In this document: positions 11,069-59,034 of the stretch, piece after piece | How positions within the stretch are numbered: position 1 is the first letter of the stretch | How the letters are laid out: each line of letters begins with the position of its first letter | Assembly (NCBI GenBank): GCA_946186205.1 | Contig: CAMHMH010000002.1 | Coordinates: 62,001-126,000 of the forward strand | DNA: 64,000 nucleotides | Reading direction: 5' to 3' | Source: an uncultured Fretibacterium sp. | GTDB taxonomy: Bacteria; Synergistota; Synergistia; Synergistales; Aminobacteriaceae | Translations under genes and position numbers: made by a program | Notes under the pieces: model-generated | What the model was told of the DNA's origin: nothing | The model's database searches: none | What the model saw: only the letters and a program-made list of their open reading frames with translations

Positions 11069-11697
11069 AGCTATATCCTCCTATAACGTATCTTTTTGTT
11101 TTTGGGAAAAAACGCCGCTAAGTATAGCAAACACGAAATATGCCGCGCAAGCCCAAGGGAACCAGTTGCCTGTCGCGCCGTATATTGTTTGTCTGCCTTT
11201 CTTGGGTATGTCAAGGTAAATCATCCCTGTGTGAACGTTCATTGCATTGGCCATGTGAAGAGGTCTGCCGAATACATCGTAAAGAATGAATCTTTCAGCG
11301 TAAGACTCAGAACAAGCAAATGCCTCTTCAGGAAAAACTAAACAGCGTTGACTCATTCTGCACTGCCTGCTTTGCACGCCGGGTGATTATGTCAGCGTTC
11401 GCCTGAAGCGTTTTCTCTTCATCGGAGCCGGAATATTCAGCGAGGATTGATTTGTCTTCAAGCAGAAGATTGTAATTCTCCAGGCCCGCGGCGACTCTCA
11501 CTGTCTGATCTGCCGTAACTATTCTTTCTACTCTGAACATGCCCGCGCTGGTGATTATCACTACAGCTATTCCGTACACGATGACACTTGCGGCTGTCTT
11601 TGCGCGCATTCCTTCCTCCCAGATGTAATTCACAACCGAAGCAAACAGCGTAACAACGAACGAAACACCAACGACTCCCGTAACGCTCGCAAGCTGC

Positions 11698-12063
11698 GTA
11701 AGCCACCTCACGGCTAAAGCCGGAGGCTTTCAGAGAAGTATGGTACACGGACAAATGTCTGAACACGCATGTTACCGCTTCAGAATACCCTTATTCACTG
11801 GGGCGTGCTTACTCGCCTCTATACGGTAAGACCCTAAAGCCTATCCGCTTACTTTTTACGGCTCACTCCCCCGCCTCATGTTTTGGCAATTTTTTTGCGG
11901 AAATCGCAAGGGCGACATGCCAGCCCGGAACGGCTCTAAGACCGTTGTGTATTTTTATCCGTTCCTGTTACAGAACGCCTATGTTAAACATATGTAAGAA
12001 TTTTAAGAGAGGAAAAGTAAAAAGTAAAGTAGCACACTTCCTCACCATAGCTAAAGCTAGGGG
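11698..12063 (-). mobile_element. Non-coding IS200/IS605-like element E1, inside lnt
   Basis: This ~366-bp block has no protein-coding content. It begins (minus strand) with a hairpin CCCCTAGCTTTAGCTATGG close to the left end of the tnpB element at 57675, and ends with a hairpin at 11706-11726 (CCTCCGG...CCGTGAGG) of the kind found at right ends of IS200/IS605 elements. Its whole length aligns with E2 (17068-17443) with many substitutions. Both copies are preceded by GGATA, which may be the target. No transposase is inside, so it would have to be moved in trans. The exact ends are inferred from the alignment of the two copies. Confidence 0.75.
11703..11980 (-). ncRNA. Candidate structured RNA of element E1
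   Basis: Reading the minus strand from GGCGTTCTG, the segment contains a strongly conserved GAACGG...CCGTTC pairing with the loop GGTCTTAGAG, a GGCG-AGTAAGCA-CGCC hairpin, a GAATA-AGGG-TATTC hairpin, a TGAA...TTCA stem and the terminal hairpin. The same elements are present in E2 with changes that keep pairing. This suggests a functional RNA, possibly a relative of the omega RNAs found at TnpB element ends. Transcription has not been shown. Confidence 0.55.
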
Positions 12064-12296
12064 TATCCGCGTGCGAGTTTTGATGAACCTGATGAGCGGT
12101 ATGGCAAATATCCACGCGCATATGCCTGTGTTGAAGATGCCGTAAGAAAACATCGTCAGCACCAATCCCAAAAGCAGCCAGAAATACGGATACTTCTGCT
12201 CAAATTCTTTCATGTTTCTTCCCTCTCGAAAAATTTATAGTCTATTGAGTTTGATCTTATCACAGTGATTTTACCGTCTTAATGATAACGGGACAT

Positions 12297-16995: not shown

Positions 16996-17067
16996 ACATG
17001 AAAAAAATTATAGAATGATAACACGCGCTTGACGATAAAGCAAGTCATCAAAAATACTGCACGGATA

Positions 17068-17443
17068 CCCCTGACTCTAGCTATGGGAAGGAAGCGCACT
17101 AACTTACTTTACTTTTACCCTTTTGTTTCTTAAAATACAAATACATAAACAAATGGGCGTTCTGTAACAAGAACGGATAAACACACAACGGTCTTAGAGC
17201 CGTTCTAGGCTGGCATATAGCCTTTGCGAAAATAGCATAAAAATTGCCAAACAAGAAGTAGCACAGGTGCGGGAGGCAAGCAAAGTAAGCGGATAAGGTG
17301 TAAAAGCCTTTACCAGATAGAAGCTGAAGTAAGCCAGCTCCGGCGAATAAGAGTATTCTGAGGTGGAAGTATCATGCTCAGACGTTAGGCCGTGTACCAA
17401 TCTTCACCGAAAGCCCCCGGTTTTAGGCGTGGGGTCGCTTACC
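17068..17443 (+). mobile_element. Non-coding IS200/IS605-like element E2, at broken dapA-like gene
   Basis: This second ~376-bp copy of the E1 element is in the opposite window orientation. The left hairpin is CCCCTGACTCTAGCTATGGG at 17068, and the right hairpin is CCCCCGGTTTTAGGCGTGGGG at 17414-17434, the classic right-end pattern of IS200/IS605 elements. As in E1 the left flank is GGATA and the right end reads GCTTAC. No coding sequence is recognisable inside. It directly abuts the dapA-like coding sequence, whose first ~70 codons are missing, so the locus was rearranged as well as inserted into. Confidence 0.75.
17155..17434 (+). ncRNA. Candidate structured RNA of element E2
   Basis: It has the same order of elements as the E1 RNA: GAACGG (17171) with CCGTTC (17200), the conserved GTAAGC loop now on an AGCTG/CAGCT stem (17322-17339) instead of GGCG/CGCC, the GAATA-AGAG-TATTC hairpin (17345-17358), and TGAG/CTCA (17359-17380) instead of TGAA/TTCA. 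Both sides of the stems change together, which is what RNA selection predicts. Transcription is not shown. Confidence 0.55.
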
Positions 17444-18169
17444 TCCGGCGTAAACTGCGAGAACACACAGGAGTCAATCGAGATGGCTCGCGAGGCAAAA
17501 GAAGCCGGCGCAGATGGTATCCTCCTCATGCCCCCGCATATGTGGCTTCGTTTCGGAATGAATCCCAACGCTCCTTTTGAGTACATCAAAGACGTAGCAG
17601 AAGGCGCGGACATCGACATCATCATTCACCTTTACCCCGCGACAAGCAAAGCATTCTACCCCGTCGAGACTCTCATCAAGATGTGCAAGGAGATTCCTCA
17701 CGTCAAATGCATCAAAGTCGGCACAAGAGTCACGGCTATCTATGAGCATGACGTACGCGAGCTCCGCAAGCACTGCCCGGATATTTCACTCATCACATGC
17801 CACGATGAGACACTCTGCGTAACATGGTTCACAGGCATGGACGGAGCACTGATCGGTTTCGCAGGCTGCGTGCCCGAACTCATCACAGGCGCATGGGAAG
17901 TCTTCTCACATCCCGAAAAGCACACACTCAAAGAGGCTCAGGACTGGTCGAACAAGATCTACCCGATCTCACAGGCCATTTACGGCGGCGGTCAGCCCTC
18001 AGGTGAAGCACACGCGAGACTCAAAGAGACACTCGCTCAGCGCGGAATCTTCAAGAGCGCATTAATGAGGAAGCCCGTACTCCCGTTAGACCAGGAAGAG
18101 AAAGACTGGGTTGCAGAGGGAATCAAACTCAGCGGACTCGGCAAAGTCGACATGAGCAAGTACGCATAA
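17441..18169 (+). pseudogene. DapA/NanA-family aldolase lacking its N-terminus
   Basis: The 243 codons downstream of E2 encode most of a dihydrodipicolinate synthase/N-acetylneuraminate lyase family barrel: SIEMAREAKEAGADGILLMPP, the Schiff-base Lys in CIKVGTR, and SLITCHDETL. Family members begin with about 70 more residues including the GTTGE active-site loop; that part is absent here and is not found upstream. A GTG at 17363 inside E2 could start a hybrid 268-residue protein, and by chance the E2 end reads PVLGVGS in frame, but the missing loop makes normal aldolase activity unlikely. The original partner reaction is unknown. An Nramp-like transporter follows after 100 bp. Confidence 0.75.
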
Positions 18170-57485: not shown

Positions 57486-57641
57486 GCCTTAATCCCTTAT
57501 AGGAAGGTTCGTAATGGAAGAGCTCGTCAGTGAAATCGGCATTGTAAGGTTTCAATCCCTTATAGGAAGGTTTCACAACTTTTTGAGGGAAAATACCACG
57601 AAACGCAATTAGTTTCAATCTCTCGCAGGAAGATTCATTTT
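57486..57641. CRISPR. Degenerate three-repeat CRISPR-like relic
   Basis: Three ~30-bp units start at 57486, 57549 and 57612, exactly 63 bp apart. The middle unit is GTTTCAATCCCTTATAGG-AAGGTTTCACAA; unit 1 shares 19 identical core bases with it, and unit 3 shares the GTTTCAATC start and AGGAAG core. GTTTCAATCCCTTATAGG is a common start of type I/III repeats. The two ~33-bp intervals are unrelated to each other. No cas gene is in the window, and repeat ends are degenerate, so this looks like the decaying edge of an array. The stretch 57398-57726 holds this relic, a terminator and the left end of the tnpB element. Confidence 0.6.
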
Positions 57642-57726
57642 GACGCGAAAATTTTATCGAAACTCGCCGTAAAACCCTTAGCTTTAGCTATGGGGATATA
57701 AGGAGTAATATAATATAATTTCAAAT

Positions 57727-58799
57727 ATGAAAACGTTTTGCTTCAAACTCTATCATTCCGACTATAATAATGCCTTAATGAGCCTAATTAATATAGCTGG
57801 CCTCATCTACAATCATTGCATAGCCTTGCATAAACGCTATTACAGATTGTACAAAAAATCTCTCAATGCCAACCGTCTGAAAAATCATCTTGCGAAATTG
57901 AAGCACACAAAAAATTTTCTTACATGAGCAAGCTAGGTTCGCAGGCAGTTCAGGACATCGCCGAGCGAATAGACCGTGCATATAATCTATTTTGGAGCAA
58001 CCTGAAGCGCAAGAAGAAATGTTCACCGCCAAAATTCCGTAAGGTACGCAGATATAAATCATTCACGCTGAAACAAGCGGGCTGGAAGCTGGACGAATTT
58101 AACGGCAAAATCCGCATAGGCAAAAAGTGGTACGGGTACTTCAAGTCGCGAAAGACAGAGGGGAAAATAAAAACAGTAACAATAAAGCGTAATGCAGTCG
58201 GTGATATATACGTCTATCTAGTGTGTGATACTTAGTGCGATACAGTCAAGCCGCGAACGGGTAAAAGCGTCGGGTTAGACTTCGGACTGAAACAATTTCT
58301 CACAGCGAGTGATGGACATAACATTAAGTCTCCGTATTTCTTCATGCTGAACATAAAGAATATCCGTAAGAAGTGCCGCAATTTATCCCGAAAAAAGGAA
58401 GGCTCGCGCAACCGTAACCGGGCAAGAAAAGAATTAGCACGCGCATATAGGAAAACGAATAACCAGCGCAAAGATTTCCACTTCAAGACAGCAAGAAGGC
58501 TATGTGAAGAATATGCAGTGATATGCCTTGAGACGCTGAACATGAAAGGAATGGCGCGCAGATGGGGGCGAAAAGTTCACAGCTTAGGCTTCTATAGTTT
58601 TGTAGAAATCTTGAAATATGAAGCAATGAAGCTGGGAACGCAGATAATCTTTGTGGACAGGTATTTTCCGTCAAGCCAGCTTTGCAGTGTATGCGGTTAC
58701 AAAAATCCGGCAGTGAAGGACTTGAAGATACGAGAATGGGAATGCCCCAACTGCCACACTAGACATGACAGGGATAAGAATGCGGCAAAAAACATTTGA
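57727..58799 (+). pseudogene. tnpB: TnpB RNA-guided nuclease, frameshift plus in-frame stop
   Basis: Three consecutive pieces rebuild one ~355-residue TnpB. The first (MKTFCFKLYHS..., to 57927) breaks at a frameshift by LAKLKHTKNF. The second and third lie in one frame separated only by TAG at 58233-58235 in a duplicated TGTGATACT/TGCGATAC stretch. The RuvC residues remain: Asp in VGLDFGLK, Glu in CLETLNM, and Asp in RHDRDKNAA, with the zinc ribbon CSVCGYKN...CPNCHT. Two lesions make it inactive as read. TnpB proteins cut DNA guided by an RNA from the element's right end. Confidence 0.88.
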
Positions 58800-58960
58800 T
58801 GGCTGGGACATACTTGCTTGCGCTTACGCAGCCAGCCAGTGGAGGAGAACCCGTGCCTTACGGCATGCAAGCACAAGACGCTCTTCGGAGTGCAAGGTTT
58901 GAAGATACCAGAATCACCCGCCTTTACTTACGTGCGCTGCGCTACAGGCGTGGGGAGTAT
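58800..58960 (+). ncRNA. Probable omega RNA region of the tnpB element
   Basis: The stretch after the tnpB stop is non-coding and rich in hairpins (GCAGCCAGCC, GTGCC-TTAC-GGCAT, CTC-TTCG-GAG, and the right-end hairpin). In TnpB elements the guide RNA is made from this place, and the guide would be read from the flank after about 58960. The call rests on position and structure only. Confidence 0.5.
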
Positions 58961-59034
58961 GTCAAAAGAAATACAAGGACGAATTAATACTGATTCCCGC
59001 TCACACAGGAACGCACAGCGATTTGTTCTGAGAA

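Follow-up and report, generated by a model that had tools for sequence, protein, structure and literature searches.

Can the guide RNA of a transposon part from the gene of its nuclease? The question is raised by two short elements, E1 and E2, in a 64,000-nucleotide stretch of DNA from an uncultured Fretibacterium sp. (contig CAMHMH010000002.1, positions 62,001 to 126,000; here called the window, to which all coordinates refer unless stated otherwise). The original prediction, made from the letters alone, took them for IS200/IS605-like elements carrying a conserved structured RNA and no protein, possibly a guide scaffold of the omegaRNA kind. Guide RNAs without a nuclease gene are familiar from standalone IscB omegaRNAs and ORF-less HEARO RNAs, which are presumed to act in trans. 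The omegaRNAs of TnpB are encoded together with tnpB and overlap it; E1 and E2 do not show this arrangement and represent omegaRNA homologs in a tnpB-less setting. That both are protein-free, tnpB-less omegaRNA elements of the IS200/IS605 type is, in our judgement, nearly certain.

Results and Discussion

E1 extends over 11698-12082 on the minus strand (385 bp) and E2 over 17049-17442 on the plus strand (394 bp). Inspection of both elements gave no plausible gene inside either. The proposed end-to-end alignment of the two holds, with about 73% identity, but the ends assigned to it had to be moved slightly outwards. Three things set the new ends: a second copy of E1, the motif TCAT, which precedes the left end in 21 of 22 related elements, and seven relatives of the host gene that carry no insertion. 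The left-end hairpin of E1 (12043-12063, minus strand) reads CCCC TAGC TTTA GCTA T GG(T)G with an extra T, and its diverged counterpart in E2, CCCCTGACTCTAGCTATGGG (17068-17089, plus strand), was assigned by alignment with E1. As predicted, comparison finds the E1 hairpin also at the tnpB element at 57675, and it is present at other IS605 elements of the window's genome as well. In both elements the hairpins are subterminal and a fixed short target lies 5′ of the left end; inverted ends and target duplication are absent.

The genome of the window yielded seven BLAST matches to the element. Among them, the second E1 copy differs in 1 of 385 bases and lies at an unrelated site on another contig, so E1 must have moved recently. 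About 20 further copies occur in sister species. Some copies of the family are internally deleted or fragmentary (L006, L007). The second E1 copy (L008 3694-4078, G000:C3) lies inside an open reading frame that joins an HTH domain to a type II/IV secretion ATPase, which by eye we take to be TrbB-like. This reading frame looks like part of a conjugative element, by which E1 might spread.

The terminal part of tnpB loci in sister species is homologous to the terminal part of E1 and E2. A covariance model of 125 positions (R2), built from ten tnpB-adjacent omegaRNA sequences alone, matches E1 at 11698-11821 (minus strand, E=8.2e-27) and E2 at 17318-17442 (plus strand, E=4.4e-26) over its full length, in each case up to the terminal base of the element. 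Both scaffolds include the right-end hairpin and the pseudoknot end GCTTAC. In an alignment of 36 omegaRNA sequences 95.9% of the cells are paired, and double changes affect 19 pairs in 138 cells, compared to 12 pairs and 47.5 cells in shuffled controls and at most 6 pairs and 15 cells in slid structures. The compensatory changes that had been noted between E1 and E2 are real and general: stem 1 alternates between GGCG/CGCC and GGCTG/CAGCC around the loop GTAAGC, and a further stem between TGAA/TTCA and TGAG/CTCA. The stem-1 loop (GTAAGC or GTAAAC) forms a pseudoknot with the six terminal bases, which read GCTTAC or GTTTAC; its variable pair is AU in 21, GC in 10 and GU in 5 sequences, without a single broken pair at that position. 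Stems 1 to 4 and a UUUA tetraloop in the terminal hairpin are present, the terminal hairpin of E2 being mismatched beside the loop. For the hairpin GAATA..TATTC, which had been described as constant, no support was obtained; because its GAA pairs with a downstream TTC, it was replaced by stem 2. Since the pseudoknot strand reaches the very end of the element, the flanking DNA comes to stand at the guide position. An additional weak omegaRNA match (1.7e-7) was noticed at G000:C1:457223-457310.

The view of E1 and E2 as a mobile non-coding RNA family of the omegaRNA type is thus strengthened by homology to the omegaRNA of tnpB elements, by covariation, by further copies and by the right flank at the guide position. 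On the three points that might have spoken against it, we found many copies, clear covariation and an interior without alignment to tnpB.

Upstream of the scaffold, the 5′ half contains a sigma-70-like promoter sequence, TTTACT-17-TAAAAT, at 12000-12028 in E1 (minus strand; one match, chance mean 0.6) and at the same place in E2 (17108-17136, plus strand). The pattern occurs near chance frequency, but its position is conserved, and the alignment makes it visible in other class A copies too. Behind it comes an RNA domain that has four hairpins in about 100 nt and that we call class A (E1: 11881-11982, minus strand; E2: 17153-17252, plus strand). Among 21 model-aligned sequences, double changes were counted in 8 pairs and 23 cells (shuffles: 3 pairs, 6 cells; slid structures: 2 and 2); this model-fitted alignment is biased towards the structure, and a MAFFT alignment points the same way, with weaker support. 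The mean pairwise identity is 0.78 in the 5′ domain and 0.81 in the omegaRNA, with 0.37 in the linker between them. A relic of tnpB was considered for this half and rejected: tblastn with four TnpBs matched nothing but the frame of the final ~20-40 codons, which overlaps the omegaRNA, and this in some copies. Judged by these comparisons, E1 and E2 are not internally deleted tnpB elements; their upstream part is a different, conserved structured RNA domain, a family that Rfam does not match.

Class A is not the only such arrangement. A second class (L004, L005, L058, L079, L046) shares the ends but carries another 5′ domain; the number of unrelated 5′ domains linked to omegaRNAs is therefore two or more. 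In the omegaRNA tree, whose bootstrap had not converged, tnpB-less and tnpB-bearing elements are mixed within groups supported with 99/99 and 98/97, and the group of E1 itself (100/100) consists of tnpB-less copies only. From this mixing and the different 5′ domains we conclude that 5′ domains were joined to omegaRNAs repeatedly or that the right part was exchanged. The pairing of tnpB-less with tnpB omegaRNAs by shared genome is weak (permutation 0.035) and no weight is placed on it. A separate tnpB-less element of ~345 bp, L132 (G000:C3:178216-178567), has yet another 5′ region and is flanked by TTATC; its omegaRNA belongs to another, sister TnpB subfamily (L150 type, TnpB 53% identical).

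When related elements with and without tnpB, 22 in all, were compared in their left flanks, T was found at position -4 in 21 and C-A-T in every one; further out, at -5 to -8, the bases are mixed. The target TCAT is identical for both kinds of element. It lies at 12083-12086 (minus strand) next to the left end of E1 and at 17045-17048 (plus strand) next to that of E2, and is also the predicted TAM. The predicted guides are the right flanks, 11678-11697 (minus strand) for E1 and, placed by homology, 17443-17462 (plus strand) for E2; their length of ~16-20 nt is taken from work on ISDra2 (PMC8612924). E1 interrupts, in sense direction, a gene that sister species carry intact and that is the only one of its family found in the window's genome. 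In seven uninterrupted relatives the right-flank sequence of E1 follows directly 3′ of TCAT (TAAT in two). By this arrangement, the right flank of E1 corresponds to the sequence behind the target motif, as a guide requires, and the predicted role of this flank therefore agrees with its position.

The left flank of E1 likewise ends in TCAT (TTAT in two relatives), which in the relatives lies 312 bp further upstream. Compared to them, 312 bp are missing at E1 from motif to motif, a deletion-coupled insertion; the idea that the rejoined flanks restore the original gene is ruled out by this loss. A 7-bp repeat, TCATCAA, is present at both deletion points and would allow a simple repeat-mediated deletion of the 312 bp. 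The rejoined gene fragment has no Pfam match; by eye we take the gene to be Lnt-like. To the right of E2, a gene of the DHDPS family (17443-18169) is truncated at its N-terminus and lacks the first ~75 profile positions. In view of this truncation E2 may be deletion-coupled too.

Candidates for the protein partners come from sister species. In one of these, left and right ends of the E1/E2 type flank a TnpB of 425 aa (Pfam OrfB_IS605 and Cas12f1-like_TNB; NCBIfam guided_TnpB, NF040570) in an intact element of 1.4 kb, left end-tnpB-right end. One genome, G010, encodes four close TnpBs (82-84% identical, two of them without internal stop) and one more at 53%, and also holds eight copies of the 5′ domain. 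In the genome of the window (G000), other TnpB families are present but none of the cognate subfamily was found; the RNA is therefore probably orphaned there at present. The subfamily was not found either in G032, G094 and G005, all of which carry these omegaRNAs. The single TnpA of the window's genome has a left-end sequence unlike that of E1 and E2; in the sampled members of the genus, too, none was seen whose ends are of the matching TCAT type.

The omegaRNA model matches 17 of the 188 genomes searched in the phylum and the 5′-domain model 10, all within one genus of the Synergistaceae, mostly from the rumen. Where carriers of the 5′ domain have a name, they are MAGs of Synergistaceae from the gut of goat and reindeer or an uncultured Fretibacterium. 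When 84,980 genomes and viral contigs were searched for the class A pattern, the matches outside the Synergistaceae failed the covariance model, and plasmid and phage collections contained no similar DNA.

Taken together, E1 and E2 are probably non-autonomous transposons that have an independent guide-RNA unit instead of tnpB and use TnpB in trans. A TnpA made elsewhere would peel the element out and paste it into TCAT sites, and the element would transcribe its own omegaRNA. The TnpB of a tnpB-bearing relative, which shares the TCAT target and has a homologous omegaRNA, could then trim the 5′ part and bind the scaffold; purified TnpB does trim the 5′ side of RNA supplied in vitro (PMC10278001). 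By cutting the empty site, TCAT plus guide, on the sister chromosome, TnpB would let repair copy the RNA-only element back. The model applied here is that proposed for ISDra2, in which TnpB protects its own element (PMC8612924), and E1 and E2 would be parasites of this homing mechanism. Use of their RNA in trans, with binding, processing and cleavage by TnpB, is inferred. A more far-reaching version, which we put forward tentatively and would not favour in full, regards them as RNA-only transposons whose new, covarying 5′ module, repeatedly joined to omegaRNAs, frees the guide RNA from the tnpB mRNA, so that a TnpB acting in trans is used or subverted for homing.

The main rival explanation is that the elements are passive derivatives formed by deletion or recombination, whose right end is kept for TnpA and whose omegaRNA is a functionless, fading fossil. 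Palindrome-associated transposable elements (PATEs) of haloarchaea are known IS605 derivatives without a transposase (PMC3119063); internally deleted or fragmentary copies and the four genomes in which copies, but no cognate TnpB, were found would fit as well. For TnpA, however, the hairpins and cleavage sites should suffice, and what has been kept here, partly via compensatory change, includes stems 1 to 3, the pseudoknot, the promoter-like site and a 5′ domain that is not a remnant of tnpB. We consider purely passive elements rather unlikely. Improbable, in our estimate, is a role as decoy or regulator, in which TnpB (or TnpA) is titrated or redirected by the elements and does not serve their own retention, the 5′ domain modulating the complex. 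A separate conserved RNA domain at the place of the tnpB mRNA would suit such a role, as would the finding that the mRNA region of TnpB can inhibit cleavage (PMC10278001), but the pseudoknot end and the flank are placed exactly as for a normal guide.

That the RNA belongs to another class altogether (IscB/HEARO omegaRNA, group I intron of an IStron, riboswitch) might be suggested by a structured RNA within a transposon and by the sense orientation of E1 in its gene. Against this stands the strong homology to an omegaRNA that overlaps tnpB. Moreover, E1 and E2 matched no Rfam family, HEARO included, at the gathering cut-off or at E values up to 5, and no RRXRR (IscB) protein was found in the window's genome, in a search whose control was equally silent. 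We rejected an identity as HEARO/IscB omegaRNA and regard this whole group of explanations as highly improbable.

E1 and E2 can be compared with known systems. The omegaRNA of ISDra2 comprises stem 1, a pseudoknot, four stems in all and a UUUA tetraloop (PMC10097598). Like this omegaRNA/reRNA, the RNA of E1 and E2 lies at the right end and has a scaffold of ~116-125 nt with stem 1, a 3′-end pseudoknot, stems 2-4 and the UUUA tetraloop (PMC8612924, PMC10097598). The flank-derived position of the guide and a TAM equal to the insertion target, both predicted for E1 and E2, are further parallels. Unlike ISDra2, they have no tnpB, its 3′ end being replaced by the promoter-like sequence and the conserved 5′ RNA domain, and their target is TCAT instead of TTGAT. 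With PATEs they share the absence of a transposase, near-terminal palindromes of the IS605 type, the lack of target duplication and, for E1 and E2 presumably, a spread by something supplied in trans (PMC3119063). They differ in having kept a complete omegaRNA, whose pseudoknot is supported, along with another structured RNA domain; in the passages on PATEs consulted in that source no omegaRNA was seen. From standalone IscB omegaRNAs and HEARO RNAs they differ in nuclease family and RNA fold.

PATEs and omegaRNAs are each known; the combination of a tnpB-less element, a TnpB omegaRNA with covariation support and an own 5′ domain had no report in the openly searchable literature, and we claim its novelty provisionally. 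TnpB is thought to retain its own element by cutting empty sites, and guide-only elements without a gene would parasitise this. If true, they would illustrate how a guide RNA separates from the nuclease gene, a step that was also needed by the guide RNAs of CRISPR-Cas12.

Some neighbouring features of the same genome may be mentioned. The tnpB element at 57675-58964 is a pseudogene, and its close relatives on C5 and C14 are broken too; it carries the left-end hairpin of E1, yet the left flanks differ (TTATC/TTTAC type). Directly beside it lie three repeats of CRISPR-like appearance, GTTTCAATCCCTTATAGGAAGGTT with its variants, at 57490-57660. The open reading frame next to the only TnpA (L045 589-1632, G000:C9) consists of two similar halves that resemble TIR domains (FLSYPSSR...LSKFLESKGF).
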